Position numbers and translations under genes: made by a program. A DNA stretch of 64,000 bases from Agromyces seonyuensis (lineage in GTDB: Bacteria > Actinomycetota > Actinomycetes > Actinomycetales > Microbacteriaceae), in the NCBI RefSeq assembly GCF_009789225.1, contig NZ_WSTA01000007.1, forward strand, positions 1 to 64,000, given 5' to 3'. The number at the start of each line of letters is the position of its first letter. Within the stretch, counting starts at the first letter, position 1. Below, piece by piece: positions 26,241-35,535 of the stretch. The notes under the pieces were generated by a model. That model saw only the letters and a program-made list of their open reading frames with translations, searched no databases and was not told where the DNA came from.

Positions 26241-26900
26241 TCACCGATCGAGGCGGAGCGGCACGCTCGCGGCGGCGACGTCCTCGGGCCACGGCGTCGA
26301 GACGCCCACCGGAACGCGACCCTCCTGCCAGCGCCGCAGCACACCGCCCGGCACTTCCTCGCGAACGAGGCCGAAGGCGTAGTGGTCGCGCCAATCCCCG
26401 TCGATGTGGATGAACCGACGCCGCAGCCCCTCGTAGCGCCAGCCGAGCTTCGCGACGACGCGCAGCGACGGCTCGTTCTCGGGCCGGATGCAGATCTCCA
26501 TGCGGTGCAGCCCGAGTTCGAAGAAGCAGTAGTCGGTCGCGAGCGCCACCGCCGTCGGCGTGATCGAGCGCCCCGCGAGTGTGCTCGACACCCAGTACCC
26601 GATCGACGCCGAGGCGAGCGAGCCGTACGTGATCGCGGAGACGTTCAGCTGCCCTGCGAACTCCCCGCCGTACTCGACGACGAACGGCAGCGCGTGCCCG
26701 GACCGAGCGTGGGCGAGCAGATTGCGGATGCTCGCCCGGGTGTCGATGACGCTCGACCCTCCGGGATAGGTCGCCTCCCAGCGCCGCAGCCAGACGCGAT
26801 CCTCGAGCAGCTTGCGTTCGAGCACGCGGCCGTCGCGCAGACGGATCGGCCGGAGCACGACGTCGCCGTCGCGCAATGTCGGCACGGGGAGGGGTGCCAT
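26241..26900 (-). CDS. rimJ: GNAT acetyltransferase, RimJ/RimL type
   Basis: The 219-residue protein is a GNAT N-acetyltransferase. The N-terminal LRPIRLRDG, the middle strands GQLNVSAITYGS and SIGYWV, and NEPSLRVVAKLGWRYEG in the acetyl-CoA region are typical of RimJ/RimL. Family members acetylate protein N-termini such as ribosomal proteins; the actual target here is unknown. The gene starts 2 bases after galU ends, so the two are cotranscribed and probably translationally coupled. It is the Rv0995 equivalent of the conserved galU-rimJ-sepX block. Confidence 0.85.
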   Translation of the reverse strand: MAPLPVPTLRDGDVVLRPIRLRDGRVLERKLLEDRVWLRRWEATYPGGSSVIDTRASIRNLLAHARSGHALPFVVEYGGEFAGQLNVSAITYGSLASASIGYWVSSTLAGRSITPTAVALATDYCFFELGLHRMEICIRPENEPSLRVVAKLGWRYEGLRRRFIHIDGDWRDHYAFGLVREEVPGGVLRRWQEGRVPVGVSTPWPEDVAAASVPLRLDR

Positions 26901-26902
26901 CC

Positions 26903-27799
26903 TCAGCTCTGCTCGAAGCCGGCGACGTACGACGCCAGCCAGGCGCGCAGGTCGGAGCCGAGGTCGGGGCGTTCCGCCGCGATCTGCACGACGGCCTTGA
27001 TGTAGTCGAGCTTGTCGCCGGTGTCGTAGCGACGACCGCGGAACACGACGCCGTAGACGCCGCCGGTGCCCTCGACGTCGTTCGCCATCTCCATGAGGGC
27101 GTCGGTGAGCTGGATCTCACCGCCCTTGCCGGGGGCTGTGTGCTCGAGGATGCCGAACACCTCGGGCTTGATGACGTAGCGGCCGATGATCGCGAGGTTC
27201 GACGGAGCGACGTCGGCGTCGGGCTTCTCGACGAGGCCCGTGACGCGGACGACGTCGGGGTCGTCGGTCTGCTCGACCTCGGCGGCGCCGTAGAGGTGGA
27301 TCTGATCGGGCTCGACTTCGAGGAGCGCGATGATCGTGGCATCGCGACGGTCGTGCTCCTCGATCATGCGGGAGAGCAGCGGGTCGCGCTCGTCGATGAG
27401 GTCGTCGCCGAGGAGCACCGCGAACGGCTCGTCGCCGACGTGCTTCTTCGCCCGGTGCACGGCGTGGCCGAGCCCCTTCGGGTCGCCCTGGCGGACGTAG
27501 TGGATGTCGGCGAGCGCCGAGGACTCCTGGACGCGGCCGAGCTTGGCGGCGTCGCCCTTCTGCTCGAGGGTGTGCTCGAGTTCCGCGACGCGGTCGAAGT
27601 GGTTCTCCAGGGCGTTCTTGTTGCGCCCGAGGATGACGAGGACGTCGTCGAGTCCCGCCGCGACGGCCTCTTCGACCACGTACTGGATGGCCGGCTTGTC
27701 GACGACCGGGAGCATCTCTTTCGGGAGGGCCTTCGTCGCCGGGAGGAAGCGGGTGCCGAGTCCGGCCGCAGGGATGACGGCCTTGGTGATCTTCGTCAT
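26903..27799 (-). CDS. galU: UTP-glucose-1-phosphate uridylyltransferase
   Basis: The 298-residue nucleotidyltransferase makes UDP-glucose from UTP and glucose 1-phosphate for wall and capsule sugars. The N-terminal binding loop AAGLGTRFLPATKALPKEM is intact, followed by DKPAIQYVVEEA and the LGDDLIDERDP metal region. The C-terminal YDTGDKLDYIKA is typical. It is divergent from the folate gene and heads the galU-rimJ pair. Its mRNA seems leaderless. Confidence 0.96.
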   Translation of the reverse strand: MTKITKAVIPAAGLGTRFLPATKALPKEMLPVVDKPAIQYVVEEAVAAGLDDVLVILGRNKNALENHFDRVAELEHTLEQKGDAAKLGRVQESSALADIHYVRQGDPKGLGHAVHRAKKHVGDEPFAVLLGDDLIDERDPLLSRMIEEHDRRDATIIALLEVEPDQIHLYGAAEVEQTDDPDVVRVTGLVEKPDADVAPSNLAIIGRYVIKPEVFGILEHTAPGKGGEIQLTDALMEMANDVEGTGGVYGVVFRGRRYDTGDKLDYIKAVVQIAAERPDLGSDLRAWLASYVAGFEQS

Positions 27800-27805
27800 G
27801 GCGAG

Positions 27806-27811
27806 AGCCTA
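27806..27811 (-). promoter_or_regulatory. -10 box, leaderless start of galU
   Basis: On the minus strand TAGGCT is followed by 6 bases and ATG 27799. Confidence 0.55.
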
Positions 27812-27837
27812 CCGGGCGGTCCCCGGGGCACGCGGCC

Positions 27838-27843
27838 TAGGAT
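27838..27843 (+). promoter_or_regulatory. -10 box, leaderless start of the folate gene
   Basis: TAGGAT is followed by 7 bases and ATG 27851. Both divergent genes are leaderless within a 51-base gap. Confidence 0.55.
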
Positions 27844-27850
27844 GAGGCCC

Positions 27851-28426
27851 ATGCCCGACCCGGACGTCGAGAAGCGGATCCTCCGCGCCGAACTGCGCGA
27901 GCGCCGTCAGAACATGAGCCAGCACGAGCGGGACGCCGCATCGGCGGGCATCACCGAGCGGCTGCAGTCGCTCGTCGAGCAGCACGGTGCGACGTCGCTG
28001 TCCGCCTACCTGTCGATGCCCTCCGAACCCGACGTGCGGCCGTTCGTGAACTGGGCCGAGGCCCGAGGCATCCGCGTGCTGTTCCCGATCTCCCGGGAGG
28101 ACGGCCTGCTCGACTGGACGGTCGGCGAGGAGCAGACCGAGATCACGGGCATCACGGGCGTGCCCGAGGCCGAGGGCGAACTGCTCGGCCCGATGGCCAT
28201 CAACGACGTCGACCTCATCATCGTGCCGGCCGCCGCGATCGACTCGACGGGCCTGCGCCTGGGCTGGGGTCGGGGCTATTTCGACAAAACCCTGGGTTCG
28301 ATGGGAAAATGTCCTCCGGTGTACGCCGTCGTCTTCGATTCCGAAGTGGTCGAGTCGGTGCCCCGCGAGGTGCACGACCAGCCCGTCGACGGCGTCGTGA
28401 CGCCCACGCGCACGCTGGAGTTCTGA
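27851..28426 (+). CDS. 5-formyltetrahydrofolate cyclo-ligase
   Basis: The 191-residue enzyme converts 5-formyl-THF to 5,10-methenyl-THF with ATP. The N-terminal KRILRAELRERRQNM, the substrate loop around YLSMPSEPDVRPF and the C-terminal ATP loop LRLGWGRGYFDKTL are diagnostic (the usual GGYYDR is GRGYFDK here). It is divergent from galU, as in mycobacteria, and is followed after 55 bases by an FmdB-type gene. Confidence 0.94.
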   Translation: MPDPDVEKRILRAELRERRQNMSQHERDAASAGITERLQSLVEQHGATSLSAYLSMPSEPDVRPFVNWAEARGIRVLFPISREDGLLDWTVGEEQTEITGITGVPEAEGELLGPMAINDVDLIIVPAAAIDSTGLRLGWGRGYFDKTLGSMGKCPPVYAVVFDSEVVESVPREVHDQPVDGVVTPTRTLEF

Positions 28427-28481: not shown

Positions 28482-28760
28482 ATGCCCACGTACTCCTACC
28501 GCTGCACCGTGTGCAACGACGCCTTCGACATCCAGCAGTCCTTCAGCGACGCCTCGCTCACGGAGTGCCCCGCCTGCGGCGGCAAGCTCCGCAAGCTCTT
28601 CTCCGCGGTCGGCGTGACGTTCAACGGCTCCGGCTTCTACCGCACCGACTCGCGTGCCGCCTCGACGTCGTCCTCGTCGTCGTCGGGCTCCTCGGCGTCG
28701 TCCGCCGGCTCGTCGTCCGGGTCGTCGTCCTCCTCGTCGAGCGCCGCCGCCGCCGGCTGA
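28482..28760 (+). CDS. FmdB-family zinc-ribbon protein (Ruc-like)
   Basis: The 92-residue protein has a zinc ribbon made of YRCTVCN and CPACGG (two CxxC pairs, residues about 8-11 and 30-33), then a low-complexity tail of Ser, Gly and Ala. The mycobacterial protein at the same place, Rv0991c (Ruc), is a redox-controlled chaperone whose cysteines bind zinc and whose disordered tail helps hold unfolded proteins. The synteny (5-FCL, fmdB, mscL) makes the same role plausible but not shown. Confidence 0.85.
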   Translation: MPTYSYRCTVCNDAFDIQQSFSDASLTECPACGGKLRKLFSAVGVTFNGSGFYRTDSRAASTSSSSSSGSSASSAGSSSGSSSSSSSAAAAG

Positions 28761-28811
28761 CCGGCGCCCGCGCGTTCGTCAACCCCTCGTCCCCCGTTCC
28801 GCCGGATTCGC

Positions 28812-28817
28812 TAGCGT
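28812..28817 (+). promoter_or_regulatory. -10 box for mscL
   Basis: TAGCGT lies 50 bases before the ATG; the leader has a GGGAGCAGG ribosome site, so mscL has its own promoter. Confidence 0.45.
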
Positions 28818-28867
28818 GGACGGTTCCGGACCCGACCGACGGGTCCGTCGACCACAGAGGGAGCAGG

Positions 28868-29329
28868 ATGCTCAAGGGATTCCGGGACTTCATCGCCCGC
28901 GGCAACGTGATCGACCTGGCGGTCGCCGTGGTCATCGGCGCCGCGTTCACGACCATCGTCAACGCGATCGTCAGCGGCATCGTCAACCCGCTCATCGCGC
29001 TCATCTTCCAGGCGGAGACGCTCGACCAGGCGCTCGTCTTCCAGGTGCCGACGCTCACCGGGGGCGAGACGACCTTCTCGTTCGGCCTCGTGATCGGTGC
29101 GATCATCAACTTCCTGGCCGTGGCGGTCGTCGTGTACTTCGCGTTCGTGATGCCGATGAACAAGCTCAAGGAGCGCCAGGAGGCCAAGGCGAGGGCCGCT
29201 GCCCTCGCCGCCGGCGTCGTCGAGCCCGAGGTCCCGCTCAGCGAGACCGAACTGCTCATCCAGATCCGCGATCTGCTCGCCGAGCAGTCGTCGGGCGCCT
29301 CCGGCACTCACGGCTCGCACTCCGCGTAA
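28868..29329 (+). CDS. mscL: Large-conductance mechanosensitive channel
   Basis: The 153-residue MscL has the N-terminal helix MLKGFRDFIARGNVIDLAVA, the gate-forming TM1 (AVVIGAAFTTIVNAIVSG), a periplasmic loop of normal size, TM2 (about residues 75-97) and a charged C-terminal bundle (KLKERQEAKARAAAL) followed by a short tail. It opens under membrane tension to release solutes on osmotic downshock. It completes the block also found in mycobacteria. Confidence 0.96.
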   Translation: MLKGFRDFIARGNVIDLAVAVVIGAAFTTIVNAIVSGIVNPLIALIFQAETLDQALVFQVPTLTGGETTFSFGLVIGAIINFLAVAVVVYFAFVMPMNKLKERQEAKARAAALAAGVVEPEVPLSETELLIQIRDLLAEQSSGASGTHGSHSA

Positions 29330-29335
29330 CCGGAC

Positions 29336-29605
29336 TCACCAGTGCGGGGGCTTCTCCCGCGCGATCCGGTCGTCGTCCGCCCCGCCCGCGCCCCGCGCGG
29401 CGGGGCGGTCGTCGTCGTGGGAGCCCGGCACCGCCGACTCCGGCGCGGGATCGGACCCCGGCGCTGGCGTGAGCCTCGCGCGCCGGGAGCCGCGTGCGCG
29501 GATGACGCGCTGCCGAGGTTCCTCCGCCGGATGCTCCGTGCCTGCGATCGTGCCGTCCCCGTCGGACGCGCCGGCGTCCGGGCGGTCGGCCGTCGGCTCA
29601 GGCAT
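29336..29605 (-). CDS. Small hydrophilic protein coupled to the helicase-like gene
   Basis: This 89-residue reading frame starts at an ATG that overlaps the stop of the large upstream gene in ATGCCTGA, a translational coupling arrangement. The product is rich in Ala, Asp, Arg and Pro, probably disordered, and ends ...DDDRIAREKPPHW. The RxxPPHW ending resembles short actinobacterial hypothetical proteins I have seen, but I know no function. Could be spurious; the overlap and the lack of a competing gene favour it. Confidence 0.5.
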   Translation of the reverse strand: MPEPTADRPDAGASDGDGTIAGTEHPAEEPRQRVIRARGSRRARLTPAPGSDPAPESAVPGSHDDDRPAARGAGGADDDRIAREKPPHW

Positions 29606-32600
29606 CCGAACGCGGCTTGCCGAGCAGCGCCGCGACCCGCTCGGCGACCGACTCCGGGTTCGCGAACAGCTCGAAGCTGTGCACGCGGAGGTAGTACCAC
29701 CCGAGCCCGCGGAGCATCGCCGGACGCAGTCGCAGCGCCTCTCGCAGGTCGAGATCGGCGAGGGCGGCATCCGTCTCGACGACGACCGCGCGCCCGGCGT
29801 GCGAGGCCGCGAGGGCCAGCCGGCCGCGGTGCCCGAGCGTGACGCGGATGCCGCGCTTGCCGAGCCGCGCGGCGAGGTCGAGCAGCATCGGCTCGCGGTC
29901 GTCGGCGGCCGCGGCCGGGGCGCCGGCCTGCCGTGCCTCCGTCTGCTGCAGGATGTCGCGCAGCGCCAGCACGCCGTGCGACTGCCGGGCGTCGTCGATG
30001 TGGTCCGCGTGGAACGCCGCGACGATGTCCATCGAGCGGCGGGCGCGCGTCATCCCGACCGCGAGGAGACGATCGCCGCCCGGCTCGCCGAGCGGGCCGA
30101 AGGTCGAGAGCAATCGGCCGTGCGGGGTCCGGCCGAAGCCGACCGAGAAGATGACGCGGTCGCGGCTCTGCGCGACCGCCTGCTCGAGGGTGAGCACCGT
30201 GAACGGCTCGGCGCGGTCCTTCAGGATGAAGTCGGTGAGATCGGTGCGCTTCGCGAAGGCCGAGAGCACCGCCTGGTGCACGCGCGTCGCATGGCGCGGG
30301 CTCGCCGTGATGACCATGAGCGACTCGGTCGGCCGCTTCACGGCGTGGTCCATGACGAGCTCGACGACCTTGACGACCTCGTTGTCGACGGACTCGACGG
30401 TGCCGGATTCGCGGTCGGGCAGCCCGTTGCCCTCGACGAAGTGGAGGTTCAGCGAGCCGTGCCCGAGGAAGCTCCCCGCCCAGGGCAGCGACTCGATGCG
30501 GCCGTCGTAGAAGCGGCGGTTGACGAGTTCCGCGAGGTCCTCGCCGCCGGCGCGGTAGCTGCGGGTCAGCTCGAGCCGCGGGAGCAGTTCGGAGAGCCGT
30601 GCGAACGCCGACTCGGCGTGGAGCCCCTCGACCTCCTCGCCCGTCGTGCGGGGACCGGCTGGGCCGTCGCGGAGTCCGGTCTCGAACGGCGTCGGGGTCT
30701 GGGTCACGGGATCGCCGACGGCCACGACCTGGCCCGCGCGGCGGATCGCGCCGAGGCTCTCGGCGAACGTCGCGGCACCGGCATCCACGAGGATGACGGT
30801 GTCGAAGGCGAGCTCGTCGGGGATCGCGGGGACCTCGTAGGGGCTCGAGAGCCACACGGGCGCGAGCGAGCGGAACAGATGCGGCGCGCTCTCGACGACG
30901 GAGCGGGCGCCCACCCGGTCGCCCCGGAGCAGCCCGCGGAGCTCGGCCGCCTCCTCGGGGTGGTCGACGAGCCCGATCTTCCAGCTCTCCGCGAGCTTCC
31001 ACGCGAGCTTCGGGCCGGCGCTGTCGGCGTGCGCCTGGTCGACGAGGCGGAAGTCGGCCTCGAGACGGTCGAGGACGGCGGTGTTGGCGCCGAGCAGTGC
31101 GCGCTCCTCGGCGAGCAGGTGCTCGAGCCCCGACTGCCACCAGGCGAGCTCGAGCTCGGCGCCGACCTCGCCGGCCGGCACGTGCCGCTTGGAGAGGTCG
31201 ACGAGGAGCGGGTCGAGACCGAAGCCGCGCAGCTCCTGCAGCACGGCGGTGCGCTCCTGGAGGTTCGCGAGCACCTCGCTCTCGGCCGCGAGCCCCTCGA
31301 GCATGGTGCGGAGTTCGCGCAGCGGCCGGGCGGCGAGGCGCTGCGGCGAGCCCTCGATGCCGAGCGGTGCGTCGAGGACCGCGAGATCGGCCTCGATGCG
31401 CTCGTAGGAGGCGAAGACGTCGTCGATGCCGACGGGGACGGCCGGGATCGCGCCCGCGGTCGTGTAGCGCTGCCACAGGGTGCGCTGCTGCTGGACACGT
31501 CGGAGCGCGTCGTGCAGGTCGCCGACCGAGGCGCCGGGGCGCACGTACTCGAGCGCGAGCCGCCGGAACTGGCGCCGGTGGGCGCCGCTCATCTTCACCT
31601 CGCGGCGCGGCGCGGTCGCCGCGATGAGCTCGCCGAGCGGCCGGTCGTAGACGGAGGGCTGGAAGCGGTCGAGCGTGGTCTTGATGTCGAGGAGGAGCCG
31701 CAGGAAGACGCCGAGCTCGGCGACCGATTCGAAGGGACGCAGCCGGGTGTCGGCGATGAGCTGCTCGGCGCGGTCGACGAGACGCGGCACGCCCGTGCGG
31801 GAGAGCTGCTGCGCGAGCTTGTGCGCGGTCTCCGCTTCCTCGCTCGTGTGGAACGCGGCTCCGTACCAGGGCGAGTCGCCCGGGCCGTAGCGGAACTCGC
31901 CGAGCTCCGCAGCGCGCGCGAGCTGCGCGGCGACGCGCTCACGGCCGGTCGCGAGCTCCGCGAGGCAGTCGCGGTCGAGCCGTGCGGAGGTGCGCGGCGC
32001 CGTCGGCTGCAGGGCGAGCCGGGCGAGCTCGCCGAGCGCGTCGAGCACCGAGATGCCGAGCGCGGCGTCGGTGCGCGAGAGCGCCGCCCGGTAGTCGACG
32101 AGCACCTTGCGCAGGCGCACGAGCGCGTCGTCGACGTCGGCGATGCGCGGCTGCTCGGCCTTCTCGTTGCGCGAGATCGAGGCGATGAGGTCGCGGCGCA
32201 GTCCCGAGTTCGTCACGGCGGCGCCACCGAGGCCGACCTGCGCGAGCCGGTGCGCGATGCCCTCGAGGCTCGAGCGGCGGGGGCCGACGACGAGCACGCG
32301 GCGGTCCGCCGCGACGAGGGCGCCGATGGCGTTGACGACGGTCTGGGTGCCGCCGGTGCCGGGCAGCGTCGAGACGACGATCGAGCGCCCCGCGGCGATC
32401 TCGGCGACGACCTGCTCCTGCTCGGCGTCGGCGGCGAGGAGCAGCGAGTCGGTCGAGGGCGGGCGCTCGTCCGAGGGCACGAGCGCGACGGGCTCGTCGC
32501 GCTGCGCGAACCGCGCGCGGGCCCGGGAGTCGCCGGCGACGGCGTCGATGAGCGGATGCCCCAGTCGCTGGGCATCCCGCGCCATCGCCGGCCCCGCCTC

Positions 32601-33341
32601 GGCGAAGTTCGACACCACGAGCCGCGGGGCGACCTGGAACCACGGCAGGTGCGCCGTGAGGCCGCGCAGGCGGTCGATGACGGGCTGCGGCTTGAACGCC
32701 CCGTTCGAGATCGCGAGGGCGACGAACGCGTCGGCGTCGAGCGAGATGCGGAACTGGTCGGCGAGCTCGCGGGCGAGCGCCGGGTTCAGGAACGGCTGGC
32801 CCTTGAGTTTGAGCTCGAAGTCGCGCCCGTACCGGCGGATGGCGAGCGGCCACAGCAGGACCGGGGCGAGGTACGCGTCTTCGCCGCGCTGCCATTTCGC
32901 GAGGCCGATCGCGAGGAAGACGGAGTCGATGCCGCGCACCGAGCGCAGCTCGATGCCCTTGTCGGTGATGGCGCCTGCGGCGAGCTTGGCGGCGCGGAGC
33001 GCCAGTTCGTCGCGGATGAGGTTCGAGAGGTGCGTCGAGTTGCCGGTGATGAATTGCGGCAGGCCGCCGGGATGGGTGGTCGAGAGCTCGATCCGCGTGC
33101 GCTCGTCGTCGGCGAAGCGGAGCAACGGCGAGCGGCCGCCGACGGCGGCCAGTTCGTCCCGCCACCGCTCGCGGGTCGCCTCGACGAGGTCGACCGGATG
33201 CTCGTCGGGGGCCCCCGTCGTCACGCTCTCCGGCGCGGCGCTGCGAGCGTCGGCGTACTCGGGGGCGAACGCCAGGGCAGTATCGCCATCGGTGTCGAAC
33301 GGGATTCCGTCCGCACCCTCTGAACCGTCGAGCCGCCGCAC
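29598..33341 (-). CDS. SF1 helicase-like protein with replaced ATPase residues
   Basis: The 1247-residue protein has the order of large SF1 (Upf1/DNA2-like, DUF4011-type) helicases: an N-terminal domain, a P-loop region, a long insert, motif II, motif III (VGDPVTQTPTPF), motif V/VI (VAVGMTRARRSMD-like) and a Vsr-like C-terminal domain (RGLGWYYLRVHSFELFANP). Yet motif I reads PGTGGTQT at 327-334, with Gly331 where the Walker lysine should be, and motif II reads VDAGA with Ala854 in place of Glu after Asp853. ATP hydrolysis is therefore doubtful. The GTG start follows a leaderless TAGGGT box. An 89-residue gene is coupled to its stop. Role unknown. Confidence 0.8.
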   Translation of the reverse strand: MRRLDGSEGADGIPFDTDGDTALAFAPEYADARSAAPESVTTGAPDEHPVDLVEATRERWRDELAAVGGRSPLLRFADDERTRIELSTTHPGGLPQFITGNSTHLSNLIRDELALRAAKLAAGAITDKGIELRSVRGIDSVFLAIGLAKWQRGEDAYLAPVLLWPLAIRRYGRDFELKLKGQPFLNPALARELADQFRISLDADAFVALAISNGAFKPQPVIDRLRGLTAHLPWFQVAPRLVVSNFAEAGPAMARDAQRLGHPLIDAVAGDSRARARFAQRDEPVALVPSDERPPSTDSLLLAADAEQEQVVAEIAAGRSIVVSTLPGTGGTQTVVNAIGALVAADRRVLVVGPRRSSLEGIAHRLAQVGLGGAAVTNSGLRRDLIASISRNEKAEQPRIADVDDALVRLRKVLVDYRAALSRTDAALGISVLDALGELARLALQPTAPRTSARLDRDCLAELATGRERVAAQLARAAELGEFRYGPGDSPWYGAAFHTSEEAETAHKLAQQLSRTGVPRLVDRAEQLIADTRLRPFESVAELGVFLRLLLDIKTTLDRFQPSVYDRPLGELIAATAPRREVKMSGAHRRQFRRLALEYVRPGASVGDLHDALRRVQQQRTLWQRYTTAGAIPAVPVGIDDVFASYERIEADLAVLDAPLGIEGSPQRLAARPLRELRTMLEGLAAESEVLANLQERTAVLQELRGFGLDPLLVDLSKRHVPAGEVGAELELAWWQSGLEHLLAEERALLGANTAVLDRLEADFRLVDQAHADSAGPKLAWKLAESWKIGLVDHPEEAAELRGLLRGDRVGARSVVESAPHLFRSLAPVWLSSPYEVPAIPDELAFDTVILVDAGAATFAESLGAIRRAGQVVAVGDPVTQTPTPFETGLRDGPAGPRTTGEEVEGLHAESAFARLSELLPRLELTRSYRAGGEDLAELVNRRFYDGRIESLPWAGSFLGHGSLNLHFVEGNGLPDRESGTVESVDNEVVKVVELVMDHAVKRPTESLMVITASPRHATRVHQAVLSAFAKRTDLTDFILKDRAEPFTVLTLEQAVAQSRDRVIFSVGFGRTPHGRLLSTFGPLGEPGGDRLLAVGMTRARRSMDIVAAFHADHIDDARQSHGVLALRDILQQTEARQAGAPAAAADDREPMLLDLAARLGKRGIRVTLGHRGRLALAASHAGRAVVVETDAALADLDLREALRLRPAMLRGLGWYYLRVHSFELFANPESVAERVAALLGKPRSDA

Positions 33342-33489: not shown

Positions 33490-33792
33490 ATGCAGTCCAT
33501 CACCCCCGCCGAGGTCCACGCCCAGGACGGCGCCTACATCCTCGACGTCCGCGAGCCCTCGGAGTGGGCGGAGCGCCACGTCGAGGGCGCCCACCACATC
33601 CCGCTCGGCGAACTCGTCGCGCGCTTCTCCGAGCTGCCGGTCGACGAGACGGTCTACGTCATGTGCCTCGTCGGCGGGCGCAGCGCGCAGGCGACGCAGT
33701 TCCTCGAGGTGCAGGGGTACGAGGCCGTGAACATGTCGGGCGGCATCGACGCCTGGCAGGGCCAGGGCCTCCCGGTCGTCGCGGGCGCCTGA
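33490..33792 (+). CDS. Rhodanese-like single-domain protein
   Basis: The 100-residue protein is one rhodanese domain: LDVREPSEW at residues 18-26, HIPLGEL, and the active loop MCLVGGRS with catalytic Cys59, ending in [12 protein letters not shown]. Such proteins carry persulfide sulfur for transfer or detoxification. The six-residue loop fits the sulfurtransferase class. It is divergent from the helicase-like gene and convergent with alanine dehydrogenase. Confidence 0.93.
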
Positions 33793-33832: not shown

Positions 33833-34933
33833 TCACCGAGCGGGCGAGAACGCGAGCCCGTGGGCTTCGGCCACGGCGGCGTTGACGAGGCGGCCGTCCT
33901 GCGTCGAGAGGCCGAGCGCGAGCGCCGGGTCGGCGGCGAGCGCGGCCGGGGCGCCGAGGTCGGCGATCCGCACCGCGTAGGGCAGCGTCGCGTTCGTGAG
34001 CGCGGGCGTCGAGGTCGCCGGCACGGCGCCGGGCATGTTGGCGACGCAGTAGTACAGCACGTCGTGCACGCGGAACGTCGGGTCGTCGTGGGTCGTCGGT
34101 CGCGACCCTTCGAAGCAGCCGCCCTGGTCGATCGCGATGTCGACGAGCACGCTGCCGGGGCGCATCGTGGCCACCATGTCGAGCGTCACGAGCTTGGGTG
34201 CGGCGGCGCCGGGGATCAGCACCGACCCGACGACGAGGTCGGCCCCGGAGACCGCACGGGCGATCTCGTACGGCGTCGACGCGAGGGTGCGCACGCGCCC
34301 GTCGAAGCGGGCATCGAGCTCCCGGAGCCGCGCGAGGGACACGTCGAGCACCGTGACGTCGAAGCCGAGCCCGAGGGCGATGCGCGCGGCGTGCTCGCCG
34401 GCGACGCCGCCGCCGATGACGACCGCGCGGGCACGGTCGGTGCCGGGCACGCCCGAGGGCAGGATGCCCCGGCCGCCGGCCGCCTTCAGGAGGCTGCCCG
34501 ACCCGACGATGGGCGCGAGCCGGCCCGCGACCTCGCTCATGGGCGTCAGCAGCGGGAGGGATCGGTCGGGCAGCTGCACGGTCTCGTACGCGATCGACGT
34601 CGTGCCGGCGGCGAGGAGCGCCTCGGTGAGCGGCCGGTCGGCCGCGAGGTGGAGGTAGGTGAAGAGCACGAGGTCCTCGCGGAGGAAGCCGTACTCGGCG
34701 GGCGTCGGCTCCTTCACCTTGAGGACGAGCTCGGCGGCCCACGCCTCGGCTGCGGTCTCGACGATCTCTGCGCCGGCGGCGGAGTAGGCGGCGTCGTCGA
34801 ACCCGCTGCCGGCACCTGCGCCCGCCTGGACGAGCACGCGGTGACCGCGGCCGGCCAGGGTGTGCACGCCCGCCGGGGTCGCGGCGACCCGGTACTCGTG
34901 GTTCTTGGTCTCGGACGGAACGCCGATCAGCAT
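33833..34933 (-). CDS. ald: Alanine dehydrogenase
   Basis: The 366-residue enzyme interconverts L-alanine and pyruvate plus ammonia with NAD. The start [16 protein letters not shown], the substrate region LVLKVKEP and [10 protein letters not shown] (catalytic His) and the nucleotide loop [13 protein letters not shown] are diagnostic. The C-terminal [20 protein letters not shown] is also typical. The ATG at 34933 follows GAGGAG. It is divergent from an Lrp/AsnC gene, the known type of ald activator in actinobacteria, so it is probably induced by alanine through that protein. Confidence 0.96.
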
Positions 34934-34983
34934 GGTGACTCCTCGTCGGTGCAGGTGCGCAAATAGTGGAGCATCGTGCGAAG

Positions 34984-35045
34984 ATCGGAAAGCGTAGCCG
35001 AACATCGTTCGGCATAATGCTCCGAATCGACGTGATCGTTCCGAA
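34984..35045. promoter_or_regulatory. Array of CCGAA/TTCGG half-sites between ald and lrp
   Basis: A 7-bp-arm palindrome GCCGAAC-ATC-GTTCGGC (34997-35013) is joined by further half-sites CCGAA at 35022 and 35041 and a related CGGAA at 34986. A CATAAT -10 box for lrp lies at 35013-35018 inside the array. Multiple spaced half-sites fit Lrp-type octamer binding. Confidence 0.6.
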
Positions 35046-35058
35046 GGCGGCCCCTCCC

Positions 35059-35535
35059 ATGCCCACCGTACCGAACCTCGGCCTCGACGAGACCGATCGC
35101 GCGCTCATCGGCCTGCTCCAGCAGGACGCCCGGATGCCGAACTCGGAACTCGCCCGCCGCGTCGGCATCGCGCCGTCGACCTGCCACGCCCGGGTGCGCT
35201 CGCTCGTGGAGCGGGGCGTCATCCGGCGCTTCACGGCCGAGGTCTCGCCGGCGGCGCTCGGCGCGACGCTCCAGGCGCTCGTGAGCGTGCGCATCCGCCC
35301 CGGTGCCCGACACCTCATGGAGCAGATCTCGGAGGAGCTGCGCCGCGAGCCCGAGGTCGCGCAGCTCTTCTTCCTCGGCGGCACCGAGGACTTCCTCGTG
35401 CATGTGCGCGTCCGCGACAGCGATCACGTGCGCCAGTTCGTGCTGAAGAACCTCTCGGCCAACCCCGCCGTCGCCCTCACCGAGACGAACCTCGTCTTCG
35501 ATCACCACACCGGATCGGACCGGTTCCTCGACTGA
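35059..35535 (+). CDS. Lrp/AsnC-family regulator of ald
   Basis: The 158-residue protein has an N-terminal HTH ([18 protein letters not shown] ... [17 protein letters not shown]) and a C-terminal RAM/AsnC ligand domain. It probably binds alanine or another amino acid and controls the divergent ald gene, as AldR does in mycobacteria. The ATG at 35059 is chosen because it follows GAAGG and lies downstream of the CATAAT box; an earlier in-frame ATG at 35017 overlaps that box. Confidence 0.9.

Follow-up and report, generated by a model that had tools for sequence, protein, structure and literature searches.

The 64,000-nucleotide stretch of Agromyces seonyuensis DNA analysed here (hereafter the window; positions 1 to 64,000 of contig NZ_WSTA01000007.1, assembly GCF_009789225.1) contains a gene for a large superfamily 1 (SF1) helicase-like protein that has lost the residues of its motor, termed here the pseudohelicase, and overlapping the end of this gene an open reading frame (ORF) for a microprotein with a conserved C-terminal tail motif. 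The loss, which an earlier note had read from this one sequence, is ancient and extends to the nuclease domain, and the gene is coupled or fused to that of the microprotein; furthermore, the pseudohelicase gene appears to be a core gene of its order, vertically inherited in one locus across 20 families. With somewhat better than even confidence, the pseudohelicase is best regarded as an ATPase-dead scaffold with a Upf1 fold that would be co-translated with a disordered docking peptide. The features concerned are the following:

29598..33341, minus strand: pseudohelicase gene, 1247 amino acids (aa), GTG start (ORF ending at a stop codon, orthologues; longest frame from 33503)
32769..32936, minus strand: DUF4011 match (Pfam PF13195, 23.8 bits against a cut-off of 22.2)
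32340..32363, minus strand: degenerate motif I (Walker A) PGTGGTQT, with Lys replaced by Gly331/385 (orthologue alignments)
30774..30791, minus strand: degenerate motif II (Walker B) LVDAGA, aligned to FDEASQ (orthologue alignments)
30036..30053, minus strand: motif VI MTRARR, its arginines retained in nearly the whole family (family alignment)
29619..29891, minus strand: C-terminal nuclease-fold domain of the Vsr/MTES_1575 type (weak Pfam match, AlphaFold2 model, alignments)
29336..29605, minus strand: overlapping microprotein ORF, 89 aa, C-terminus DDDRIAREKPPHW (unlisted ORF, tail-motif comparisons)

In agreement with the earlier note, the frame of the 1247-residue protein is intact up to its stop codon. 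An alternative upstream GTG at 33503 would yield a product of 1301 aa; the start of the 1247-aa version is plausible because several congeners have in-frame stops immediately before its position. Residues are accordingly numbered in two ways, by the 1247-aa and the 1301-aa frame (331/385, 852/906, 853/907). With respect to domain make-up, the match to DUF4011 exceeds the gathering cut-off but is partial (model positions 95-156 of 158), and Pfam matches to AAA_11 and AAA_12 are weak. The Vsr-like C-terminal domain proposed in the earlier note (a nuclease-fold domain, MTES_1575, PF18741; domain traced to PMC3710099) scores below its gathering cut-off (19.7 against 38.2 bits) and is confidently modelled by AlphaFold2 as the last domain of the protein. 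The gene is present as a single copy in its Agromyces-like genome, and the closest named relatives of its product are found in Agromyces species with 72-74% identity. An antisense open frame of 1284 codons (29469-33323, plus strand) spans the whole gene and is a typical shadow ORF of high-GC DNA, prone to mis-annotation.

Amongst 145 distinct sequences of the family, to which all family residue counts refer, not one has Lys385 of motif I or Asp906 of motif II, and hence the motif losses are due neither to chance nor to error. The loss of the Walker A lysine had been recognised correctly in the earlier note; Gly is found at this position in 124 sequences, and Gln387 in 144. With regard to motif II the note was right about the loss itself but not about the register: in a gap-free alignment with motif-keeping orthologues from the same locus, the Mg-binding Asp corresponds to Val852/906 and the catalytic Glu to Asp853/907, and Ala854, taken in the note for the replacement of Glu, is the ordinary Ala of DEA. 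Intermediates found in other families (DDAS, DDAG) fit this register of FDEASQ on LVDAGA and thereby support it. Asp907 stands in for Glu in 144 sequences, and the arginines of motif VI, likewise noted before, are present in 138 and 144. In the nuclease domain, the Asp of RIDLAV is replaced by Ala1230, so that the first acidic residue is gone in 144 sequences, and Asp1245 on the following strand is present in all 145. Lys385, Asp906, Glu907, Ser909 and the nuclease Asp1230 are among the residues that never vary in intact members but have disappeared from degenerate ones, Asp1230 having changed at least 6 times on the tree; scaffold residues along the whole length stay at 80-100% in degenerate members. 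Beyond the family but within the order, even the P-loop has been destroyed (e.g., SGRNGVSS, FPKGTAEQ). Two candidate explanations were rejected, namely a sequencing error in this genome, for which the earlier note had looked to homologues with Lys and Glu and which is ruled out by the family-wide loss, and a compensating lysine upstream of the P-loop, since some congeners have S, Q or E in place of the K that lies three residues ahead of the loop.

Every domain of the pseudohelicase is under strong purifying selection, as the overall dN/dS amounts to 0.03-0.17 in 16 close pairs and is similar for all domains; in a distant pair (the window against L003) it is 0.35 at a dS of 0.61. Within the genus, the gene has diverged about as much as the neighbouring alanine dehydrogenase and cyclo-ligase genes. 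A gene-specific acceleration in the window's genome could be ruled out, because the neighbouring genes diverge equally there, and this genome simply represents an outlying species of the genus. Taken together, retention throughout family and order, purifying selection and the loss of ATPase positions from an otherwise preserved scaffold lend good support to the selection for a non-catalytic function that the earlier note had suggested, and point to a long-standing role that is structural and not that of a motor.

Orthologues were found in 25 of 25 congeners (the window's own genome included), in 149 of 150 sampled genomes and 85 of 85 genera of the family, and in 117 of 119 sampled genomes of the order, and they are kept even in genomes of 0.93 Mb and 0.8 Mb. 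Outside the order, just 12 of 92 genomes of the class gave any match. Two neighbours of the gene are conserved:

28511..29329, plus strand: mscL ORF, the convergent neighbour, conserved across the order and beyond (locus comparisons)
26876..28426, plus strand: ORF with 5-formyltetrahydrofolate cyclo-ligase, a conserved neighbour (locus comparisons)

The usual arrangement, in which the pseudohelicase gene is convergent to mscL and the cyclo-ligase gene lies beyond mscL, is the same for intact and degenerate members. Intact members (GPPGTGKSQT, FDEASQ, RIDLAV) reside at this locus in two families (L061 and L096; L071, L077, L087 and L089), one of which also contains degenerate ones, and linkage to mscL is also seen for a degenerate relative from f38, a family that belongs to another order. 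Since intact members occupy the same site, the ancestor at this locus was a complete helicase-nuclease resembling ProA and Hhe. As for the number of motor losses, parsimony yields two changes, and free trees place the degenerate members in more than one position; however, a single dead clade is not rejected by the approximately unbiased (AU) test (p 0.62), and the claim of many independent losses was dropped for this reason. Judging from these trees, there were one or a few losses, which are ancient and not specific to the genome of A. seonyuensis. On its 5′ side, the pseudohelicase gene is accompanied in the congeners checked by an alanine dehydrogenase gene and a divergent Lrp-type regulator (33833-35535), a pair that is not at that place in other genera of the family.

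A genome search revealed no second DUF4011 protein in A. seonyuensis. The other AAA_12 helicase above the cut-off (L156 on contig C141 of the same genome, G000) has a different architecture and intact GPPGTGKT and IDEAGQ motifs; it is Upf1-like and may serve as a useful internal control. Amongst the congeners searched, 24 of 25 have one match per genome. Congener G015 carries, in addition to the core gene, a 2185-aa ORF matching the pseudohelicase (C22:159542-162391), which is an accessory Hhe-like gene and sporadic (1 of the 25).

The microprotein ORF begins with an ATG that shares 8 nucleotides (nt) with the pseudohelicase stop (ATGCCTGA), and its C-terminus DDDRIAREKPPHW fits the tail motif [ND]D-x-R-[LI]-xx-[DE]-x-PPHW; in most families, a D/E-rich stretch followed by WG[DE] comes before it. 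Of 167 loci, 150 have this motif 3′ of the helicase gene; in 16, an in-frame fusion makes it part of the helicase C-terminus, in intact and degenerate members alike. The strict form of the motif was counted 49 times in the downstream windows, which total 147 kb, and not once in 2.7 Mb taken from elsewhere in these loci, and the tail was found in 75 of 80 named loci of the family, three of the five misses being loci without downstream DNA. Where the two genes are separate (192 cases), the start codon closest to the helicase stop lies exactly at -4 in 77; choosing the nearest start favours small distances in general but not the exact -4 overlap. As the fused and separate states have changed at least 6 times on the tree with the tail intact, this recurrence together with the excess of 4-nt start/stop overlaps suggests that the coupling is selected. 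Across the class, a tail profile has matches at E <= 1 in 91 of 98 genomes, many of them strong and others weak. Beyond the order, the microprotein occurs without the helicase, usually beside mscL and/or a gene for an FmdB-type zinc ribbon protein, and nothing conserved was seen 5′ of it there. It has no significant match in Pfam, NCBIfam or the PDB, and a literature search on the PPHW tail found nothing. Two of the most reduced genomes, L098 (0.93 Mb) and L078 (0.8 Mb), keep the dead helicase with no detectable tail motif downstream. The small gene is convergent with mscL (28511-29605); antisense regulation reportedly also links mscL and arfA in bacteria (PMC10070815), and the resemblance of the two arrangements is possibly a coincidence.

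The fold of the pseudohelicase was modelled with AlphaFold2 for residues 105-1301 with 66 orthologues in the alignment (pLDDT 93.3, pTM 0.83). The nearest solved folds in Foldseek are those of Senataxin, Aquarius, Upf1, Ighmbp2 and Dna2 (best E 2.5e-14), and profile searches match Upf1-like proteins (Senataxin, Upf1, Ighmbp2) as well, so that the Upf1-like SF1 helicases provide its best matches in both fold and sequence. The two RecA-like domains with their Upf1-like layout are present, whereas the Walker A Lys and the Walker B Asp-Glu are not; unlike these helicases, the pseudohelicase furthermore has a DUF4011 domain, a large helical insertion and a nuclease-fold domain. With the anti-phage proteins ProA and Hhe it shares the DUF4011-type N-terminus, the SF1 helicase core and the Vsr-like C-terminal nuclease domain, but both matches remain below the curated cut-offs of NCBIfam (ProA, NF058533: 7e-93, 312.1 bits against 1500 over about 630 residues; Hhe, NF042953: 1e-41, 142.5 bits against 2000 over about 460 residues). 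PADLOC likewise reports PDC-S37/Hhe, and a literature search on PDC-S37 found nothing. In contrast to ProA and Hhe, which comprise about 1800-1900 residues, the pseudohelicase has about 1250, has lost its catalytic residues, and is core, vertically inherited and coupled to a microprotein.

Precedents for its mode of action exist in proteins that act with dead helicase folds. In RecC and AddB, inactivated SF1 folds scan single-stranded DNA (PMC4824097), and the pseudohelicase has in common with them the SF1 topology without motor motifs; however, RecC and AddB are UvrD-like subunits of a helicase-nuclease complex, whereas the pseudohelicase has a Upf1 fold, and no conserved gene for a motor partner was found next to it in the loci compared. 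The PriA protein of Deinococcus radiodurans, which binds DNA without ATPase activity, is similar in that its helicase motifs have been lost throughout the lineage and its ability to bind DNA has been kept (PMC4504706), but PriA is a known restart factor, while the ancestral type of the pseudohelicase is a defence-like helicase-nuclease. The pseudohelicase is a member of neither of these families.

According to the scaffold hypothesis, an SF1 helicase of Upf1 fold with a Vsr-like nuclease domain, related to anti-phage ProA and Hhe, would have been fixed next to mscL and become a core gene of this actinobacterial order, and would then have lost the residues for ATP binding and hydrolysis in most lineages and later often one nuclease residue too. 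As the protein remained folded and under purifying selection, it may therefore serve as a non-motor scaffold, binding nucleic acid or another partner via its retained helicase and nuclease surfaces in the manner of RecC/AddB and Deinococcus PriA, presumably in a housekeeping role. The scaffold would be made in a coupled fashion with the disordered microprotein, whose C-terminal motif might dock on common cellular machinery or on the scaffold itself.

Several observations weigh against this hypothesis. No conserved partner gene was found upstream within 4.5 kb in 50 loci, a few helicase loci lack a detectable tail, and the tail of a fused orthologue was left undocked on the helicase by AlphaFold2 (pLDDT 56-63), although a short linear motif with some other binding partner would be expected to look disordered and undocked in this way. 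Moreover, the microprotein is class-wide and older at the locus than the helicase, so that mere adjacency could account for both coupling and fusion. In that case the link would be purely positional, the helicase gene having been inserted 5′ of an old microprotein gene with neutral overlap and fusion, as the lone microprotein beside mscL in other orders and the undocked tail would allow; in view of the repeated changes between fused and separate states and the strong excess of 4-nt overlaps we consider this possible but doubtful. It also seems unlikely that the protein is a working anti-phage protein whose dead motor acts as a sensor triggering another effector, in defence rather than housekeeping. 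Its nearest named families are indeed anti-phage ones, but the scores fall far short of their cut-offs, the separate Hhe-like ORF is sporadic amongst the congeners, and near-universal vertical retention in one locus is unlike an accessory defence gene; the persistence of the gene in streamlined genomes also speaks against a role in defence alone.

The near-invariance in the family of the P-loop (PGTGxTQT), Asp907 and the motif VI arginines likewise counts against a pure scaffold, as it makes some role of the nucleotide pocket conceivable. That the remodelled pocket still binds, or perhaps slowly hydrolyses, nucleotide is nevertheless very unlikely, given that Lys and the Mg-binding Asp are gone in all family sequences, that the P-loop is destroyed elsewhere in the order and that no conserved lysine compensates for the loss. 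Inhibition of active relatives is a common fate of dead enzymes, and the earlier note had considered an active paralogue as the target; with no second DUF4011 protein in the genome, and a different architecture in its other AAA_12 helicase above the cut-off, this can hardly be upheld. Just as little speaks for a decaying gene that is under relaxed selection and on its way to being lost: the families do diverge fast and their branches are long, but the low dN/dS across all domains, the intact frames and the retention in reduced genomes are not those of a gene in decay.

Extending the scaffold hypothesis, one might speculate, with a rather small chance of being right, that the microprotein serves as a peptide docking on some universal machine, that the dead helicase acts as its receptor or carrier in this order, and that the two make up an undescribed core complex of nucleic-acid maintenance, built from an anti-phage-type helicase-nuclease that has been retired. 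The finding also provides a lead to a class-wide conserved microprotein for which neither a Pfam or NCBIfam model nor a solved relative was found. Genes for anti-phage-type helicase-nucleases are usually regarded as mobile and accessory; here, one such gene seems to be near-universal and vertically inherited in an order, having kept the scaffold and given up the motor, and would offer a clear test case for how an immune-type enzyme can be turned into a structural protein.

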